Notes under the pieces: generated by a model
Databases searched by the model: none
The model's input: the letters and a program-made list of their open reading frames with translations, nothing else
Told to the model about the DNA's origin: nothing
Program-made: the position numbers and the translations under genes
Shown: in pieces, positions 7,916-18,383 of the stretch
How positions within the stretch are numbered: the stretch's first letter is position 1
How the letters are laid out: each line of letters begins with the position of its first letter
From: Desulfarculus sp.
GTDB lineage: Bacteria; Desulfobacterota; Desulfarculia; Desulfarculales; Desulfarculaceae
DNA length: 64,000 nt
Assembly: GCA_003605055.1 (NCBI GenBank)
Contig: QZKP01000040.1
Span: forward strand, 1-64,000
Direction: 5' to 3'

Positions 7916-8842
7916 GTGGGCAAACCGATGAACAAGGTCAAGAGCTTGGCCCAGGCGGTGGCCGGGCTGGTGCGGCCCGGCGACAAGGTGGCCCTGGGCT
8001 GCGGCCTGGAGGCCTTCATCCCCTTCGCGGCCAGCCACGAGATCATCCGCCAGGGCATCGGGCCCCTGACCCTCATCGCGCCCATCTCCAACATCGGCAT
8101 TGACCAGATCATCGCCGCCGGCCTGGCCGAGGAGGTCATCGCCGCCTGGGTGGGCAACGTCTCCACCGGCGTGGGCTACAATTTCCGCCGGGCGGTGGAA
8201 GAGGCCCAGCCCCGGCCCCTGCGGGTGTATAACCACACCAACTTCTCCATCACCCTGGCCCTGGAGGCCGGCTCCCGCGGCCTGCCCATGGCCGTGAGCC
8301 GCTCGCCCCTGGGCAGCGACATTATCCGGGACCACCCCCACTTCCAACCCTTCACCTGCCCGCACAGCGGCCAGAAGCTCCTGGCCGTCAAGGCCTTGAA
8401 CCCGGACGTGGCCCTGATCCACGTGCAGCGGGCCGACGCGGCCGGCAACGGCCAGGGCTGGGGGGCCAGCGGCTTCACCCGCCAGGCGGCCCTGGCCGCC
8501 CAGCGGGTGCTCTTGACCTGCGAGGAGCTGGTGGACAGCCAGGCGATCCGCTCCGACCCGGACCGCACCCTGGTGCCGGGGCTGTTGGTGGACGCGGTCT
8601 GCCCGGTGCCCTGGGGCGCCCACCCCTCGCCGGTGCAGGGCTACTACGACCTGGACAACGATTTCTTCGTGGAATACTCCCGCTGTAGCAAGGACCCGGC
8701 AAGAGCCCAGGCCTGGCTGCGGGCGTGGATCCTGGACCTGCCGGACCGGACGGCCTACCTGGACCAACTGGGCCCCGCCCGCCTGAAAAGGCTCAAAATG
8801 AGCCACAGCGCCCTGTCCAGCCCCGTGGAGTACGGCTGGTGA
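7916..8842 (+). CDS. CoA-transferase alpha subunit (GctA-like)
   Basis: A 308-residue protein resembling the alpha subunit of family I CoA transferases of the glutaconate CoA-transferase type. Visible blocks include VRPGDKVALGCG near the N-terminus, the long central IGIDQIIAAGLAEEVIAAWVGN segment, and DVALIHVQRADAAGNGQGWG in the second half, a family hallmark. The GTG at 7916 follows GGAGGGG closely; the ATG at 7928 is the alternative. It overlaps the beta-subunit gene through a GTGA junction, as expected for a heterodimeric enzyme. The CoA acceptor cannot be deduced; a dicarboxylic or aromatic acid would fit the window. Confidence 0.85.
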   Translation: MGKPMNKVKSLAQAVAGLVRPGDKVALGCGLEAFIPFAASHEIIRQGIGPLTLIAPISNIGIDQIIAAGLAEEVIAAWVGNVSTGVGYNFRRAVEEAQPRPLRVYNHTNFSITLALEAGSRGLPMAVSRSPLGSDIIRDHPHFQPFTCPHSGQKLLAVKALNPDVALIHVQRADAAGNGQGWGASGFTRQAALAAQRVLLTCEELVDSQAIRSDPDRTLVPGLLVDAVCPVPWGAHPSPVQGYYDLDNDFFVEYSRCSKDPARAQAWLRAWILDLPDRTAYLDQLGPARLKRLKMSHSALSSPVEYGW

Positions 8843-9594
8843 GCCGCTACACCCCGGCCGAGATCATGGTGGCCGCCGCTGCCCGCCAGATAAAAGACGG
8901 CGAGGTGGTGTTCGTGGGCATGCGCCTGCCGCTGCTGGCCTTCAACCTGGCCACGGCCACCCACGCCCCCCACGCCCTGGGCGTGTTCGAAAACGGCGTG
9001 ATCCGCGACCGCCCGGCCACGGCCCCCATCATCACCATGGGCGATGCGCCCAACCAGTGCCAGGCCCTGAAGCTGTGCGACCTGGAGGGGGTGATGAGCC
9101 TGCTCGGCCGGGGCCGGGTGGACCTGGGCTTCATCGGCGGGGCCCAGGTGGACCAGTGGGGCCACGTGAACACCCACCGGGTGGAGATGCCCGGCGGCAG
9201 GTTCCTGCGCCTGCCCGGCTCCGGCGGCGGGGCGGATATCGCCTGCCTAGCCGGCCGCCTGTTGATCGTCATGAAGCACGAGCGGCGCCGCCTGGTGCCC
9301 CAGGTGGACTTCATCACCTCCCCGGGCTGGGGGCCGCGGCCCGGCTGGCGCCAGGAGCAAGGCCTCCTCCGGGGCGGCCCGGCCGCGCTGATCACCTCCC
9401 TGGGCGTATTCACCTTCCCCCAGGGCCGGGCCGTGCTCTCATCCCTGCACCCTGGCGTGAGCCTGGAGCAAGCGACCGCTGAAACCGGCTGGGAACTGCT
9501 CAGGGACCCCCATCTGCAAACCACCCCGGAACCAACACCCCAAGAGCTGGAGATCATTAGACGTTTTGATCCCCAGGGCTTCTGGACCCACTGA
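8839..9594 (+). CDS. CoA-transferase beta subunit (GctB-like)
   Basis: A 251-residue partner of the preceding subunit. It opens with RYTPAEIMVAAAARQIKDG and continues with VFVGMRLPLLAFNLA, both characteristic of the GctB family. Glu51 in VFENGVIRD is the likely nucleophile that forms the glutamyl-CoA thioester, by position relative to the family. The segment RVDLGFIGGAQVDQWGHVNT is also conserved, as is LPGSGGGADIA. The GTG start at 8839 overlaps the alpha-subunit stop (GTGA), so translation is coupled. Product class is secure; substrate is not. Confidence 0.87.
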   Translation: MSRYTPAEIMVAAAARQIKDGEVVFVGMRLPLLAFNLATATHAPHALGVFENGVIRDRPATAPIITMGDAPNQCQALKLCDLEGVMSLLGRGRVDLGFIGGAQVDQWGHVNTHRVEMPGGRFLRLPGSGGGADIACLAGRLLIVMKHERRRLVPQVDFITSPGWGPRPGWRQEQGLLRGGPAALITSLGVFTFPQGRAVLSSLHPGVSLEQATAETGWELLRDPHLQTTPEPTPQELEIIRRFDPQGFWTH

Positions 9595-10617: not shown

Positions 10618-12633
10618 ATGAGGTACGCCGAGACGGGGTATAACTTAGAAATTGATCTTTCCCGAGGAAACATTGAGAGGGTACAAACCGACCCAAGGGA
10701 CACTGAGCTTTATCTGGGGGGGCTAGGTACCAACGCGAAGATAATATGGGATAGGGTCCCCCCTGAAGTTGAACCGTTTTCTCCCGATAATCTGCTGATA
10801 TTCAGCGCCGGCCTTCTATGTGGCACACCCGCCACCGGCTGCAATCGCACCATTGTCACTACCATTTCGCCTCAGACTTTATTAATGGCATTTTCAATGA
10901 TGGGTGGGTTTTGGGCGCCGGAATTGAAGTATGCCGGTTACGACAAAGTGATCATTCGCGGCAAGTCCCCCAATCTGGTTTATTTGTGGATAAATAACGA
11001 CAAAGTAGAAATACGCGATGCCTCTCATTTGCAGGGTAAAGGCGCGGTTGAAACCGCGGAACTTATTCGACGGGAGTTGAAGGAGCCGAAAGCCCAGGTG
11101 GCGGCTATCGGTCTGGCCGGTGAAAACAGGGTCTATTTTGCTTCCATCGAGCAGGGCAGGTCCAGCGCCAGCCGAGGCGGAATAGGCGCCGTTATGGGAG
11201 ACAAAGGGTTAAAGGCGATAGCCGTTCGTGGAACAAAGGACCTCAATATTGCCCGGCCGGCTGAATTTATGGAGCTTTGCAACGAAGTACTGGCATATAT
11301 AAAATTTCGAAATGAAAACCCAATTCCGGGGGTAATGCCCATTTTAGCCGGGCTTGGGTCACCCCAAGAGATGAAAGTCCATGATGAAAAGTGGCACACA
11401 GAAAATTTCTCCTGGGGAAATTCCCGCCTCCGCAGAAAGGATTATTGGAACGAGGAAATCGCAAAACAGTGGTCCGACACCCTGGAAAATATGCGGACGC
11501 GGTTAATAAGTTGCTATAACTGTCCGATGAAATGCGGGGCGACAATTTCCCCCCCGGGACTCCCAACATACATGATGAAATGCTTCTCGAAACTTACTTA
11601 TACCATGGCGGCTATGTCAGACCTGGAATTTGGTTTGGGTATCGCTCAAAGTGCCACGGAATATGGGGTGGATGGATTCTCAGCCCCACAAGTTATGGCC
11701 TTCGCCGTGGAACTTTATGAAGCCGGCATTTTGACTGACGACGACATGCCTGGATTTCCGTCCGATAACGAGGAGAGATTTTACTGGTTGCTCGACAGAA
11801 TTGTTCGGCGGGAAGGGATAGGAGATGTTTTGGCCAATGGCACTTATTGGGCGGCCAAACAGATCGGTAAAGGCGCAGAAGCATATGCGCATAATAATAT
11901 CAAAAAGCATGAGCAACTGCCTCTCAAGCTATCCATGCTGAATCCCATTTATTTCCTTATGTATGCTACCGGCGAGAAGATAAACATCACCCAAATTGAA
12001 GGGCAGTTCCCCCAGGCGCCTTTTCCTAAGAAGGAACAGAGAGAAGAGTTTGTAAAGGATTGGTTCCAGGTTCCTGATGAAAAGTTTAAACAATATTTTT
12101 TGGGCTGGGATCCACGCGGGGAAAAATCAATGCCATATTACCCAACTGTTGAAATGAGTTGTGATATCGTTGACTGGCAAGAGAGGATGCACTACATTGA
12201 TGACGCCCTCGGCATGTGTGCCGGCTTGTCATCATTCCCCCTGAAGCCTCCGTATCATATACACAATTATCCGAAATTTATCTCCTCAGGGGCCGGGATC
12301 GATATGGATGAAGCCAAACTAACGCAAGCCGCCAAAAGATACCGGACCTTAGTTAGAGCCAATAATATAAGAAGAGGCATGAGGAGAAAAGATGAGAAGC
12401 CTCCAGAGAACCATTGGAAAAAAAGGTTTCCCGAGCTTGAAAAGGAGCTATTAGATACGTACTACAATTTTAAGGGGTGGAATAACCAGGGTATTCCCAC
12501 TAAAGAGTCTTTACATGAATTGGGTTTGGATTACGTATTTGAAGACTTCGTTAAGAGGGGAATCTTGACAGATAATGAAGATGCATCACCCAAATATACT
12601 TTGGCGGAAAAAGCGCAGGAGGTGCAGCCTTGA
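10618..12633 (+). CDS. bamB: Benzoyl-CoA reductase BamB-type tungstoenzyme subunit (AOR family)
   Basis: A 671-residue aldehyde:ferredoxin-oxidoreductase-family protein. The N-terminal domain runs from YNLEIDLSRG through SMMGGFWAPELKYAGYDK, typical for binding the tungsten bis-pyranopterin cofactor. The [4Fe-4S] ligands are Cys299, 302 and 306 (CYNCPMKC) plus a distal Cys534 (GMCAGLSS). Glu251, His255, His260 and Cys322 fall at the positions I recall for the active site of Geobacter BamB, which supports assignment to the class II benzoyl-CoA reductase rather than a generic AOR. In that enzyme this subunit reduces benzoyl-CoA to cyclohexa-1,5-diene-1-carboxyl-CoA. It is first in a five-gene operon. 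A paralogue acting on a related acyl-CoA cannot be excluded. Confidence 0.88.
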   Translation: MRYAETGYNLEIDLSRGNIERVQTDPRDTELYLGGLGTNAKIIWDRVPPEVEPFSPDNLLIFSAGLLCGTPATGCNRTIVTTISPQTLLMAFSMMGGFWAPELKYAGYDKVIIRGKSPNLVYLWINNDKVEIRDASHLQGKGAVETAELIRRELKEPKAQVAAIGLAGENRVYFASIEQGRSSASRGGIGAVMGDKGLKAIAVRGTKDLNIARPAEFMELCNEVLAYIKFRNENPIPGVMPILAGLGSPQEMKVHDEKWHTENFSWGNSRLRRKDYWNEEIAKQWSDTLENMRTRLISCYNCPMKCGATISPPGLPTYMMKCFSKLTYTMAAMSDLEFGLGIAQSATEYGVDGFSAPQVMAFAVELYEAGILTDDDMPGFPSDNEERFYWLLDRIVRREGIGDVLANGTYWAAKQIGKGAEAYAHNNIKKHEQLPLKLSMLNPIYFLMYATGEKINITQIEGQFPQAPFPKKEQREEFVKDWFQVPDEKFKQYFLGWDPRGEKSMPYYPTVEMSCDIVDWQERMHYIDDALGMCAGLSSFPLKPPYHIHNYPKFISSGAGIDMDEAKLTQAAKRYRTLVRANNIRRGMRRKDEKPPENHWKKRFPELEKELLDTYYNFKGWNNQGIPTKESLHELGLDYVFEDFVKRGILTDNEDASPKYTLAEKAQEVQP

Positions 12634-13208
12634 TGGGTGATAAAAAAAAGAAAATAGTTAAAACAATCAAAGTTGATGTTGATAAATGCAATGGCTGCCG
12701 GGCATGTGAGATGGCCTGCTCCGCATTTCACGCTGTACCGAAATATAGCAGCAATAATCCCGAGAGGTCTCGTATCCGGGTGATTCGTGAACCACTAAGA
12801 GACTTATATGTACCCGTATACGCTGGTGACTATACTCCCGCCGAATGCGCGGGCAGAGATAAGTACACGATTGACGGGAAGGAATACGACGAGTGCGCCT
12901 TCTGCAGGGCTTCCTGCCCCTCCAGAGGTCTTTTCAAAGAGCCCGATTCCGGTCTCCCTCTAAAATGCGACATGTGCGAAAGCGATCCGCCGTTAGCTGA
13001 GCCCTTATGTGTGCAGTGGTGTTTAGCTGATGCCCTGACTTACGAAGAAAGGGAAGAGGAAGTCGAAGAAGAAGAGAGCCTGGATGAGATGGAGATAGGG
13101 CTTGAATCACTGGCGAACAAATATGGATTAAATAAGATAATGGATACCGTCGCACGAATGTCAATGTCTAAGAAGGGCATGAGCGTTAAGGCGAAAGAAG
13201 AGGATTAA
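12633..13208 (+). CDS. bamC: BamC-type ferredoxin-like electron transfer subunit
   Basis: A 191-residue iron-sulfur protein of the HybA/DmsB type. The first cluster motif is at Cys19, 22, 25 and 29 (CNGCRACEMAC). Further cysteine groups follow in ECAFCRASCPSRG and LKCDMCESDPPLAEPLCVQWC, giving about three [4Fe-4S] sites. The C-terminus is a charged Glu-rich stretch (REEEVEEEESLDEME) followed by a basic tail. In the class II benzoyl-CoA reductase, BamC links the tungsten subunit to the Hdr-like module. The ATG overlaps the bamB stop (TGATG); AGGAGG lies ten bases upstream. Confidence 0.85.
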   Translation: MGDKKKKIVKTIKVDVDKCNGCRACEMACSAFHAVPKYSSNNPERSRIRVIREPLRDLYVPVYAGDYTPAECAGRDKYTIDGKEYDECAFCRASCPSRGLFKEPDSGLPLKCDMCESDPPLAEPLCVQWCLADALTYEEREEEVEEEESLDEMEIGLESLANKYGLNKIMDTVARMSMSKKGMSVKAKEED

Positions 13209-13216
13209 GAAATACA

Positions 13217-14368
13217 GTGGAAACTGTAGCCGACTTCAAAGAGATTATAGATCTCATAAAAGCGAACGGTGGAGAAGCTTTCAAACGCTGCTACCAGTGC
13301 GGATTATGCGATACGGTTTGTCCGTGGAATAGAGTTAGAACCTTTAGCATGCGCAAGATAGTCCGCCAGGCTACGTTCGGTTTGACTGATATAGAAAGTG
13401 AAGACATCTGGCGTTGTACTACCTGCGGAAGATGCCCTCAACAGTGCCCCAGGGACGTAAAACAAATAGAATCCGGGGTGTCCTTGCGCAGGATTGCCAC
13501 GGAATATGGGGTCTTTCCCACTTCTGTCCGTCCTATCCGCACCATAAGCGCAAGCCTCGTTGGCGAAGGCAACCCCTTAAGCGAGGAGCGGAAAAACAGG
13601 GCAAAGTGGGCAGAAGGCCTTTCTGTCAAAACGTTCAGCGAGGGGATGGAAATATTATATTTCCCTGGCTGCTACCTCAGCTATGACCCACGATTAAAAA
13701 AGGTAGCTAGAGCCACAGCCAATATCCTAACCTCGGCAGGGGTGGATTTCGGAATACTGGGCTCCAAGGAGAATTGCTGCGGCGAGAGCATCCGCAAGAC
13801 GGGCGATGAGGAATTATTCAAACGTTTAGCCAGAGAAAACATAAAAACTTTTATCGATAATGGAGTGAAGAAAATCCTTGTTTCTTCCCCTCATTGCTAT
13901 CATACCTTCAAAAACGAGTATACCGAATTTATGGTGAACTTCGAGGTGGTTCATATATCTCAATATTTATTCGATCTTATTAATGAGGGAAGGCTCGAGC
14001 TTAACAAGGAGTATGGGAAGAAAGTTACTTATCACGACCCATGTTACCTGGGTCGGCATAATGGCATATATGACGAGCCCCGCGAGGTCTTAAAGAAAAT
14101 ACCTGGTCTAGAGCTGAAGGAGATGCCTGACTCGCTGAAAGATAGCCTTTGTTGCGGAGGGGGCGGGGGCAGGATTTGGATGGAAACCCCGAAGGGTGAA
14201 AGATTCTCCGACCTCAGGGTAGAACAAGCTATCGGGGTCGGGGCTGAGGTGCTGGTTACTTCCTGCCCATATTGCATCACCAATCTTGAAGATAGCCGTT
14301 TAAATCTGGAGGATGGTGAAGTCATAGATATTAAGGACATCACAGAGATTATCCAGGAAGCTATTTAA
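13217..14368 (+). CDS. bamD: BamD-type HdrD-like subunit with CCG domains
   Basis: A 383-residue protein. The N-terminal part has two [4Fe-4S] motifs (Cys25/28/31/35 and Cys67/70/73/77). The C-terminal part carries two cysteine-rich CCG domains: ENCCGES near residue 190 paired with ILYFPGCY, and LCCGGGGGRIW near 312 paired with YHDPCYLGRHNG. This is the architecture of heterodisulfide reductase HdrD/HdrB, where the CCG cysteines hold noncubane clusters. In the Bam complex it belongs to the Hdr-like module proposed to bifurcate electrons. The start is a GTG at 13217, eight bases after bamC. Confidence 0.85.
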   Translation: METVADFKEIIDLIKANGGEAFKRCYQCGLCDTVCPWNRVRTFSMRKIVRQATFGLTDIESEDIWRCTTCGRCPQQCPRDVKQIESGVSLRRIATEYGVFPTSVRPIRTISASLVGEGNPLSEERKNRAKWAEGLSVKTFSEGMEILYFPGCYLSYDPRLKKVARATANILTSAGVDFGILGSKENCCGESIRKTGDEELFKRLARENIKTFIDNGVKKILVSSPHCYHTFKNEYTEFMVNFEVVHISQYLFDLINEGRLELNKEYGKKVTYHDPCYLGRHNGIYDEPREVLKKIPGLELKEMPDSLKDSLCCGGGGGRIWMETPKGERFSDLRVEQAIGVGAEVLVTSCPYCITNLEDSRLNLEDGEVIDIKDITEIIQEAI

Positions 14369-14401: not shown

Positions 14402-17400
14402 GTGGAAAAAGAAACTGCTGAGGGACAGCTTTTAAAAATTCCCGCAGACGGCAATTTTGGAGATGTTCTGGTTGTCGGGGGGGGGATCAGCGGTATTCAA
14501 GCCGCCCTTGATCTTGCCACTTCGGGCTTTAGGGTTTTTTTGGTTGATAAAGCGCCTACCATCGGCGGCAAGATGGCCCAGCTTGACAAGACCTTCCCCA
14601 CCAATGACTGCTCCATGTGCATTGAGTCTCCCAAGTTTATTGAATGTGCTAGGCACCCAAATATAGAGATTCTGACTTATACCGAAGTTGACAGCGTAGA
14701 AGGGAACGCAGGAGACTTCAAGGTAACTCTGATTAAAAAGCCCAGATACATTATTGAGGATAAGTGCACGGGTTGTACGGTCTGTGTAGAGTACTGTCCG
14801 GTCAAGGTCCCTGATCAATTTAATCAAAACTTATCGTCGAATAAAGCCGTCCACATATATTTTTCTCAAGCCGTTCCCCTGGTCACTTATATAGACGAAA
14901 ACTGCCTTTACCTTAAAGACAAGAAATGTTCTATTTGCGTAGGAGCTTGTAAGAATAAAGCCATAGACCTCCATCAAGAAGCGGAGAAGGTAGAAATAAA
15001 AGTAGGGGCAATTGTCCTGGCTCCGGGCTATGAGATATTTGATCCTAAGTTGAGGGGCGACTATGGCTACGGAACAATGGAGAACGTGGTAACTAGTCTC
15101 GATTTCGAACGGTTATTATGTGCCACCGGGCCCCACGAAGGTGAGATATTACGCCCTTCCGATAAGAAGCACCCACATAAAATAGCCTGGATTCACTGCG
15201 TCGGTTCCAGACAGGTTACCCCGGGCGGTAACAGCTATTGTTCCGCGGTATGCTGCTCGTATATCCAGAAGCAGGTGATCTTGGCAAAAGACCATGACGC
15301 CGAGATGCAGGCTGCGATATTCCATAACGATATCCGGTCCTATGGCAAAGATTTCGAACGATTCTACCAAAGGGCAGAGAAGCTTCCCGGGGTTAAATTT
15401 ATTAGAAGCTACGTATCAATCGGAAAAGAGATCCCGGAAACTAAAAACATCACGATAATATATGCTACCGACGAGGACGGAGTAAAAGAAGAAGAGTTCG
15501 ATCTGGTGGTATTAGGCGTTGGCTTGAACCCTCCTGCTGCTGTGAAGGGCCTGGCGGAAAAGTTCGGTATCGAGCTCAATTCTTACCAATTCTGTAAAAA
15601 CAATCCTGTTAATCCTATTGAGACCTCTCGCCCGGGAATTTTTGTAAGCGGCGCCTTCCAGGGTCCCATAGATATCCCCGAGTCGGTGGTAACCGCCAGC
15701 GGGGCTGAGGCCCTTTGTGGTCAACTCCTTGCTCGCCGGCGAGGGAAGCTGGCCAAGGAAAGGATATATCCACCGGAAAGGGATGTCTCCGAAGAAGAGA
15801 CCAGGGTGGGTGTCTTTGCGTGTCATTGCGGGGCCAACATCGGACGGGTAGTAAATATTCCTTCCCTAGTTGAATATGCCAAGACCTTAGACAATGTGGT
15901 TCACGCTGAAGAAGGCCTTTTTATATGCTCCACGGATGCTGCCGAGCAAATCGCAAACACCATCCGGGAAAAAGGGCTCAACCGCGTGGTTGTCGCCGCC
16001 TGCACCCCCAAAACCCATGAGCCGTTATTCCGGGACACGCTGCGGGAAGGGGGCATTAATCAATACTTCTTCGACATGGCCAATATCAGAGAACATTGCT
16101 CCTGGGTCCACTCCCGCGAAAAGGAAGACGCCACCCAAAAGGCGAAAGATATAGTCCGGATGTCGGTGGCCCGCTCCGCCCTTTTGCAGCCCTTACAAGA
16201 ATTTGATCTGCCCGTAAACAAGACGGCGTTGGTGGTCGGCGGAGGCGTGGCCGGCATGACCAGTGCCCTGAGCCTGGCCAACCAGGGATTTGAGGTTTAC
16301 CTGGTGGAAAAGGAGAAGGACCTGGGGGGGATGGCCCGCAGGCTTCACTACACGCTGGAAGGGCTGGATGTTCAAGCATATTTGCAAGATGTTATACGCA
16401 AGGTTTATCAGCATCAGTTGATTCACGTATTGACCGATGCCACCATCACAGAGGTTTCCGGTTATGTGGGGAATTTCATAACCAAGGTGCAGTCTGAAGG
16501 AAGGATCAAAGAGATACTCCACGGAGCAGCCATCCTGGCTACCGGGGCCGCAGAATATAAACCCACCGAATACCTTTATGGGCAAGATGATAGGGTGTTG
16601 ACCAACCTGGAGTTGGAAGAGCAAATCACCAAGAGAGAAGAAAGACTGATTAACTCCCAAAGCCTGGTGATGATCCAGTGTGTAGGCTGCAGACAAGAAG
16701 ACAGAAATTACTGCGCCCGGATTTGTTGCAGCCAGTCTGTAAAGAACGCATTGAAACTAAAAAAGATAAATCCCCAGATGGATGTCTATATCCTTTTTCG
16801 GGATATGCGAACCTATGGATTTAGAGAGGATTATTACCGAGAAGCGTCAAATAAAGATGTAAAATTCATCCGCTATGAGCCGCGAAATAAACCCCAAATG
16901 GAAGCTGTTGAGGAGGGTGGTCAGAGTATTTTAAAGGTCACCGTGACCGATCCTATTTTAGGTCAGGAGCTTGCCATAGCTGCCGATTCGATCGCTTTGG
17001 CTGCCGCCGTTATTCCCTCGGCAGGAAGCCAGGAAATATCCCGATTATTCAAGGTGGCTATGAGCCCAGACGGTTTCTTCCAGGAAGCCCATGTAAAATT
17101 GAGACCTGTTGACTTTGCCGCCGAAGGCATTTTCCTGTGTGGCACAGCCCACTATCCCAAGCACATGGCGGAGACGATCAGCCAAGCCTATGGAGCTGCC
17201 GGCCGGGCTGTAACTCTTCTCTCGCAGGATTCAGTCAGAGCTTCCGGCTCTGTCGCCGAGGTGAACGAGAGTGCGTGCATAGCGTGCGGGGCATGTACGG
17301 CGGCTTGCGCCTATGGCGCCATACAGTTTGAGGACACAAAGCAAGGCAAAAAGGCCGTGGTTAATCCTGCTCTCTGTAAAGGAGATGGCCTCTGTAACGC

Positions 17401-17500
17401 AGTGTGTCCGACAGGCGCTGTTTCCCTAAAGCACTACACCGATGAAGAAATTTTTCGCCAAATCGACGCGGCGGTTCCAGACGTTGCCGCAGCCCGCTAA
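14402..17500 (+). CDS. bamE: BamE-type HdrA-like flavoprotein (duplicated)
   Basis: A 1032-residue HdrA-like protein with two FAD-binding halves. The first Rossmann motif is VVGGGISGIQAAL (about residues 20-32), followed by the HdrA-type DKTFPTNDCSMC insertion and two cysteine motifs (CTGCTVCVEYCP, CSICVGACKN). The second motif is VVGGGVAGMTSAL (about 610-622). A C-terminal ferredoxin domain has CIACGACTAACAYGA and CKGDGLCNAVCP. HdrA is the site of flavin-based electron bifurcation in heterodisulfide reductases, and BamE is thought to play the same role, driving endergonic ring reduction without ATP. The start is a GTG at 14402. Confidence 0.87.
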   Translation: MEKETAEGQLLKIPADGNFGDVLVVGGGISGIQAALDLATSGFRVFLVDKAPTIGGKMAQLDKTFPTNDCSMCIESPKFIECARHPNIEILTYTEVDSVEGNAGDFKVTLIKKPRYIIEDKCTGCTVCVEYCPVKVPDQFNQNLSSNKAVHIYFSQAVPLVTYIDENCLYLKDKKCSICVGACKNKAIDLHQEAEKVEIKVGAIVLAPGYEIFDPKLRGDYGYGTMENVVTSLDFERLLCATGPHEGEILRPSDKKHPHKIAWIHCVGSRQVTPGGNSYCSAVCCSYIQKQVILAKDHDAEMQAAIFHNDIRSYGKDFERFYQRAEKLPGVKFIRSYVSIGKEIPETKNITIIYATDEDGVKEEEFDLVVLGVGLNPPAAVKGLAEKFGIELNSYQFCKNNPVNPIETSRPGIFVSGAFQGPIDIPESVVTASGAEALCGQLLARRRGKLAKERIYPPERDVSEEETRVGVFACHCGANIGRVVNIPSLVEYAKTLDNVVHAEEGLFICSTDAAEQIANTIREKGLNRVVVAACTPKTHEPLFRDTLREGGINQYFFDMANIREHCSWVHSREKEDATQKAKDIVRMSVARSALLQPLQEFDLPVNKTALVVGGGVAGMTSALSLANQGFEVYLVEKEKDLGGMARRLHYTLEGLDVQAYLQDVIRKVYQHQLIHVLTDATITEVSGYVGNFITKVQSEGRIKEILHGAAILATGAAEYKPTEYLYGQDDRVLTNLELEEQITKREERLINSQSLVMIQCVGCRQEDRNYCARICCSQSVKNALKLKKINPQMDVYILFRDMRTYGFREDYYREASNKDVKFIRYEPRNKPQMEAVEEGGQSILKVTVTDPILGQELAIAADSIALAAAVIPSAGSQEISRLFKVAMSPDGFFQEAHVKLRPVDFAAEGIFLCGTAHYPKHMAETISQAYGAAGRAVTLLSQDSVRASGSVAEVNESACIACGACTAACAYGAIQFEDTKQGKKAVVNPALCKGDGLCNAVCPTGAVSLKHYTDEEIFRQIDAAVPDVAAAR

Positions 17501-17540
17501 TGACCAAAGCACGGATTGCTGACTTAGGAGACAGAGACGA

Positions 17541-18383
17541 ATGGGTGCAGGACTTGTGGCGAAGCCAAGGATCATAGGTTTCCTATGTAATTGGTGAGGA
17601 TACTCCGCTGCGGACTTGGCTGGAGTTTCCAGACTACAATATTCGACCGAGATCAGGATCGTTCGGCTCATGTGCACCGGCAGAGTCGACCTGTCCTTTA
17701 TTCTCCGGGCCTTCTCCAATGGAACCGACGGGGTGTTTATCGGCGGTTGTTGGCCTGGCGAATGTCATTACATTACCGATGGAAATATCCATGCCTTGAA
17801 CATGGTGAATCTGTGTAAAAAATTAATGGAGCACATAGGTGTTAACCCCCAAAGATTAAGGCTTGAATGGCTATCCGCCTCGGAAGGAATCCGTTTCGCC
17901 GAAGTTATGAATGACTTTGGCAACCAACTGAAAAATTTAGGACCTCTTGGCATAGGCGAAGGAATAGACCAAGATGAATTAAAGTCCAAGCTTCAAGAAG
18001 TTACCAAACTAATCCCCTACATTAAGCTGGTGAAGAAGGATAAGCTGGCGTTACGTCTTAAAGAAGAAGAGTATAACGAGCTATACACCAGTGACGAGGT
18101 GGACAGGTTATTTAGCGAAGTACTCTCGTACTATATTGATCCGGATAAGTGTCAGGCCTGTCAGATTTGCTTTAGGAGATGCCCTGTAGAAGCGATTGAA
18201 GGCGGCAAGAACCAGATCCATGTAATTGACCAAGATATATGCATAAAATGCGGAACCTGCTTTGAGGTTTGCCCCCCTCGCTTTGCTGCGGTGAATAAGA
18301 TTTCCGGCCAGCCGGTTCCGCCCCCTATTCCTGAAGAACAAAGAACTATAGTCAGAAAGAGTAAAGGAAAAGGCGGGGGCTAA
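17541..18383 (+). CDS. bamF: BamF-type MvhD-like selenoprotein
   Basis: The ATG at 17541 opens a frame that reads MGAGLVAKPRIIGFLCNW, meets TGA at 17595-17597, and continues in the same frame (GYSAADLAGVSR) to 18383, giving 280 residues with selenocysteine 19. The motif LCNWxGYxxADLAG is the N-terminal [2Fe-2S] region of MvhD (methyl-viologen hydrogenase delta), where this position is normally Cys. Other cysteines at 45, 70 and 75 complete the site. The C-terminus adds two [4Fe-4S] motifs (CQACQICFRRCP, CIKCGTCFEVCP). BamF is a known selenoprotein in some benzoate degraders. A start at 17616 after the UGA would remove two ligands and is rejected. Confidence 0.88.
17598..17630 (+). promoter_or_regulatory. 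Candidate SECIS element in bamF
   Basis: Immediately 3' of the UGA, GGATACTCC (17598-17606) can pair with GGAGTTTCC (17622-17630) with one mismatch around a 15-base loop. Bacterial SECIS hairpins occupy this position and recruit SelB. The apical GU typical of E. coli is not obvious, so the exact structure is uncertain. Confidence 0.5.

Follow-up and report, generated by a model that had tools for sequence, protein, structure and literature searches.

Introduction

The gene at positions 17541-18383 of the 64,000-nt stretch of Desulfarculus sp. DNA analysed here (the window; contig QZKP01000040.1 of assembly GCA_003605055.1) is interrupted by an in-frame UGA, and the question is whether this codon ends a decayed gene, lies ahead of a shorter one, or is read as selenocysteine (Sec). 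We consider it highly probable that the gene belongs, as bamF, to a bamBCDEF cluster for a class II (tungsten) benzoyl-CoA reductase, that it starts at ATG 17541, and that UGA 17595-17597 encodes Sec by way of a downstream hairpin. The evidence comprises a frame open through one UGA, alternation of Cys and UGA at that codon, constraint on the hairpin codons beyond that exerted by the protein, selA, selB, and selD in the genome, and the neighbouring bam genes. The W/Se-containing class II enzyme was reportedly studied by Loeffler and colleagues (2011) and by Huwiler and colleagues (2019), and Peters 2004 is reportedly the work cited for Sec proteins in Desulfococcus multivorans.

The MvhD family is already known to include Sec proteins, and the window's bamF adds a case. 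In the available portions of the papers concerned, the Sec form of the MvhD/FlpD family is listed as CxxU (PMC13188914), Desulfobacterium autotrophicum has four mvhD genes with Sec (PMC2702500), and D. multivorans has Sec in mvhD and bamE (PMC5109826). Similarly partial texts list the bamF of Geobacter metallireducens as a hydrogenase delta subunit (PMC1924859) and describe the BamF of Geotalea daltonii as a predicted selenite-binding subunit, with selenocysteine appearing solely in a reference title (PMC13119186). An earlier note on this DNA, made from the letters alone, held that Sec in BamF had already been reported; we met no such statement in the available portions of the open-licence texts searched, where Sec is reported for BamE (PMC5109826).

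A Reading Frame Open Through a Single UGA

Read from ATG 17541, bamF contains a sole in-frame TGA, at 17595-17597, and continues to a stop TAA at 18381-18383 (Table 1). With TGA translated as Sec, the product has 280 residues and begins MGAGLVAKPRIIGFLCNWUGYSAADLAG..., which bears out the earlier claim that this reading restores the motif LCNW-Sec-GYSAADLAG. When C was substituted for Sec, a profile search placed an FlpD/MvhD domain (PF02662) at residues 11-134 (164.6 bits, E 1.2e-48, Pfam cut-off 22.3), and a two-cluster [4Fe-4S] ferredoxin domain lies toward the C terminus, at about residues 197-245. By sequence, the best solved relatives of BamF are MvhD of 5odc and its kin. The window's BamF shares the FlpD domain and the CNWC/U motif with the Sec form of the MvhD/FlpD family; however, it differs in having the ferredoxin domain and in sitting in a bam cluster. 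In MvhD, the FlpD domain carries a [2Fe-2S] cluster, which has four ligands, and links an HdrA-like subunit with its partners.

Table 1. Features of the bam region, in window coordinates
Feature	Positions	Strand	Basis or remark
bamB, tungsten subunit of class II benzoyl-CoA reductase	10618..12633	+	match to 4z3w
bamC, iron-sulfur electron-transfer subunit	12630..13208	+	274 bits vs 4z3w chain E; start as listed
bamD	13217..14368	+	position and domains (CCG, Fer4; HdrC/HdrB- and GlpC-like)
bamE	14402..17500	+	position and HdrA likeness; without in-frame TGA
Likely ribosome-binding site of bamF, AGGAGA	17526..17531	+	sequence
bamF, predicted selenoprotein gene	17541..18383	+	280 residues with Sec at 19; FlpD/MvhD domain and C-terminal ferredoxin domain
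In-frame UGA, codon 19	17595..17597	+	TGA 90, TGC 12, TGT 7 of 109 matches listed, own included
Standard-code frame, truncated	17616..18383	+	TTG start, 255 aa (table 11)
Conserved SECIS-like hairpin, CUGGA-GUU-UCCAG	17620..17632	+	apical loop 17625-17627; 27 nt past the UGA

The Window's bam Cluster

The genes upstream of bamF support its assignment. BamB aligns with the benzoyl-CoA reductase 4z3w over residues 1-651 (1270 bits) and retains Cys322, Glu251, His255, Glu257, and His260; in class II benzoyl-CoA reductase, Cys322 is the W ligand and the other four residues form the Zn site, according to the available part of PMC12096430. The gene order is bamBCDEF, with BamB and BamC assigned by their match to 4z3w and BamD, BamE, and BamF by domains and position. 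Across 102 loci with a BamF-like match, a BamE homologue (at least 60% identity) was found in 100, and BamB, C, D, and E were all found in 40, many of the loci being too short to span the whole set. These results support the bam context of the gene. In the few downstream frames scanned, no bamGHI domains were found. On the other side, ahead of bamB, two frames at 7916-9594 carry CoA-transferase domains.

Cys and UGA Alternate at Codon 19

Homologues were assembled from two sources: 30 loci, taken from among more matches listed for the window's genome and 19 family genomes, and 80 named loci from a species-genome collection, the best 80 of 342 relatives. Two of these 110 loci do not reach codon 19 and another contributes two matches, giving 109 matches. 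Since one of the six search patterns has Cys at codon 19 and is unable to match UGA, the search was not biased to UGA. Aligning homologues at position 19, as had been suggested, showed UGA/Cys alternation of a degree that chance would not produce: among the 109 matches listed, 90 have TGA (89 if the window's gene is left out) vs. 19 with Cys (TGC in 12, TGT in 7), and no other codon occurs at this position. Seven of the 109 are MvhD paralogues scoring below 200 bits (6 Cys, 1 TGA); without them, the BamF-like matches listed number 102, i.e., 89 TGA and 13 Cys. Removal of two identical rows left 88 UGA and 19 Cys distinct genes, all 107 of which have Cys16 and 105 of which have Trp18. In 31 aligned rows, of 102 available, the Cys/Sec columns 16, 19, 45, 70, and 75 are invariant. 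Cys16 and Sec19, which the earlier note took for cluster ligands, are thus two of five candidates for four ligand places, and Sec19 may be either a ligand or a redox-active neighbour of the cluster. As in other class II clusters, the window's bamF follows bamBCDE, and UGA likewise stands at codon 19 in the loci analysed from Geobacter, Geomonas, and Geotalea.

The UGA is a single base away from TGC or TGT, as would be expected if it were a real stop produced by decay of bamF or by a sequencing error. However, 87 other distinct homologous rows carry the same codon, the remainder of the frame is open, and the hairpin codons described below accompany UGA and not Cys. Considering these observations together, we judge a real stop to be very unlikely.

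The protein could also begin after the UGA, at TTG 17616 or ATG 17670, leaving the upstream part untranslated. The standard code lists only a frame of this kind and that frame is open past the UGA; as the earlier note had remarked, it starts at TTG 17616, and no AGGAGA-like site is seen immediately upstream of it. AGGAGA does, however, precede ATG 17541, by 9 bases. Codons 8-18 have a mean protein identity of 71% to the 87 other UGA genes, and their differences from these genes, as a plain count with no dN/dS test, are 385 synonymous and 278 changing. Further, a start-like codon is present at codon 26 in only 31 of the 88 UGA genes, and in 40 of them the first such codon is at 44. Of the seven Cys genes of the window's family, six have no stop within the match and one has TAG. 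It is therefore most improbable that translation begins downstream of the UGA.

A Hairpin Conserved at the Codon Level

If UGA encodes Sec, a SECIS element would be expected close behind it. We calculated synonymous entropy among the 88 distinct UGA genes, using the 87 columns in which one amino acid with a degenerate code occupies at least 80% of rows. The lowest values belonged, in order, to codons 30, 29, 28, 27, and 31 (0.295 for codon 31, vs. a mean of 0.76 over the 87 columns). These codons, GCT GGA GTT TCC AGA, spell the hairpin CUGGA-GUU-UCCAG. The next lowest entropy, 0.32, was at codon 4 (17550-17552), which lies outside the hairpin and is GGA in 51 of the 57 rows that have Gly there. 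The hairpin codons accompany UGA: GGA28 occurs in 82/88 UGA genes vs. 4/19 Cys genes, GTT29 in 82/88 vs. 8/19, TCC30 in 84/88 vs. 8/19, and AGA for Arg31 in 76/88 vs. 0/19 (75/87 vs. 0/13 in BamF-like rows alone), although Fisher values for these contrasts overstate independence because the Cys genes are akin, belonging mainly to two tree groups. The entropy ranking, made within UGA genes, is unaffected by that kinship.

The five pairs of the hairpin are formed in 97.4% of 380 cells, a value reached by none of 500 shuffles, and the sole consensus helix returned by RNAalifold is the hairpin's 4-bp core. Covariation is scant, with both-sided changes at one pair, a pair count that 50 of 500 shuffles also reach. 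At that U-A pair, a both-sided change to G-C is seen in 2 of the 76 distinct rows, while 3 rows break the pair; the closing A-U is missing in 7 rows, which leaves a 5-nt loop with G second. Versions of the hairpin slid by -1 or +2 outscore it on covariation. The case for this predicted element is thus one of codon conservation and not of covariation.

For bacterial SECIS elements, the available part of PMC13188914 sets a loop of 3-9 nt carrying G in the first two positions, a stem of 4-16 bp, a distance of 16-37 nt from the UGA, and a folding energy no higher than -7.5 kcal/mol. Within those limits, as there stated, are the hairpin's loop (GUU), stem (5 bp), and spacing (27 nt). Its energy alone, -5.3 kcal/mol, is above the limit of -7.5, while the segment 17595-17640 reaches -9.8 with the hairpin core forced and -14.6 in a different fold when folded freely. 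Among homologues, the core is part of the free minimum in 57 of 87, and forcing it brings 85 of 87 to -7.5. The bamF hairpin is therefore like a bacterial SECIS element in its small apical loop starting GU, its 5-bp stem, and its distance from the UGA, but unlike one in that it is not the lowest-energy fold in the window.

Of four segments folded, only 17595-17640 clearly stands out (-14.6 kcal/mol, z -2.44, equalled in 5 of 200 shuffles; the other three had z of -1.86, -0.28, and -1.16). Its lowest-energy fold was considered as the SECIS and rejected: the pairs of that fold are formed in 73.2% of 836 cells (76 distinct rows), and 377 of 500 shuffles score as high. A stem-loop does follow the UGA, as had been noticed, but the conserved hairpin is the one at 17620-17632, and the lowest-energy fold of 17595-17640 is another, unconserved structure.

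A covariance model had also been suggested as a check. A model of the hairpin region (R1, with the window's row included), run on the window's own genome, matched the window and then the three other UGA MvhD genes (E 4e-6 to 0.009), yet it matched a Cys MvhD too (E 0.5). Since the model partly scores protein-coding likeness, as the Cys match indicates, it offers no independent proof. An Rfam search of the window gave no match above the gathering score.

The Selenocysteine Machinery

The genome encodes selA (606 bits), selB (383 bits), and selD (372 bits), all above the curated cut-offs, and four of its nine FlpD domains have one TGA. The selD gene (locus L017) has a UGA of its own, in AAG-U-AAK. 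The fourth gene that the earlier note had asked for, selC, was not found in the assembly's 78 contigs by a family search, a stricter family search, a tRNA pattern, or a relative's gene, the tRNA-Sec family searches having scored 150 of 845 and 127 of 847 candidates. The genome's nine weak hits to the tRNA-Sec family are other tRNAs according to ARAGORN, which found no tRNA-Sec near selA, selB, or selD. A very short tRNA pattern gave 21 matches in the genome and was uninformative, and the flanks of a relative's selC showed no clear synteny here. Relatives do have the gene: a tRNA-Sec above the cut-off is present in 12 of 20 family genomes (the window's own counted as a miss) and in 5 of 7 same-genus genomes, and ARAGORN agreed for all nine relative loci run, of 13. 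With 78 contigs and a completeness of about 94%, the assembly most likely misses selC because of a gap.

A missing selC would also fit suppression of the UGA by a near-cognate tRNA (Trp or Cys), with no Sec in the product. However, selA, selB, and selD are present, five of seven same-genus genomes have a tRNA-Sec, and under such suppression the constraint on the hairpin codons would serve no purpose. We regard near-cognate suppression as exceedingly unlikely. The codon-19 counts, the hairpin-codon constraint, and the three sel genes uphold the earlier note's central claim, that bamF is a selenoprotein gene with Sec at codon 19; from the sequences, Sec would indeed be inserted there and, by analogy with MvhD, Sec19 would lie at an MvhD-type iron-sulfur site.

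Distribution of the Sec and Cys Forms of BamF

On a quick tree of 100 rows, the Sec/Cys state needs 3 changes, 2 of which are forced by starred branches, compared with a shuffled mean of 12.4. Records of Sec-BamF carry the phylum labels Thermodesulfobacteriota, Chloroflexota, Bacillota, Planctomycetota, Gemmatimonadota, and others. Among the matches listed, a BamF-like gene with UGA occurs beside one with Cys in 7 of 20 family genomes (pairs L033/L050, L036/L053, L037/L052, L040/L051, L054/L041, L055/L043, and L056/L042), and the Cys members of the seven pairs are one starred tree group. These pairs may be selenium-dependent isozymes for aryl-CoA reduction.

The window's BamF stands apart from its same-genus orthologues on the tree. 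A Peptococcaceae MAG labelled Bacillota shows the highest identity to it, 75-78% (75% over 194 columns in the tree), and its best same-genus match among those listed has 72%. Transfer, paralogy, or a misbinned contig are possible origins; if the contig was binned in error, the sel genes of this assembly would have no bearing on the window.

BamF comes in two forms, one of about 280 aa that has two 4Fe-4S motifs and one of about 255 aa that has none, and each is found with Sec and with Cys. In the 102 rows scoring above 200 bits, two motifs occur in 57 UGA and 7 Cys rows, one motif in 2 UGA rows, and none in 30 UGA and 6 Cys rows, some of which may be cut by contig ends. Six motif-less loci (L131, L134, L139, L113, L117, and L124) are not so cut and have frames of 255-257 residues. 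Three of them, L131, L134, and L139, are the BamF of Geobacter, Geomonas, and Geotalea, which at 255-256 residues lack the ferredoxin motifs, unlike the window's BamF.

Proposed Mechanism and Implications

In the mechanism that we propose, the ribosome would start at ATG 17541 and read UGA 17595-17597 as selenocysteine, the hairpin at 17620-17632, 27 nt downstream of the UGA, recruiting SelB with Sec-tRNA(Sec). By analogy with MvhD, the FlpD domain of BamF would carry a [2Fe-2S] cluster. BamF would then serve as the electron link between the HdrA-like BamE and the other parts of the complex, and its added two-cluster ferredoxin domain could act as a further electron relay.

Annotation under the standard code would shorten BamF, an electron-transfer subunit in the anaerobic breakdown of aromatics, by 25 residues, two conserved Cys/Sec positions among them, and the present case is chiefly useful for correcting the annotation of bamF. 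The nearly fixed hairpin also provides a simple handle for finding Sec-bamF genes. A broader reading, which we put forward only tentatively and think rather doubtful as it stands, is that Sec-BamF is the default state and moves with the bam cluster and the nearly fixed SECIS hairpin across many phyla, with few switches between Sec and Cys, and that the pairs in the family could be isozymes. A dependence on Sec, if true, would tie benzoate degradation to selenium supply.
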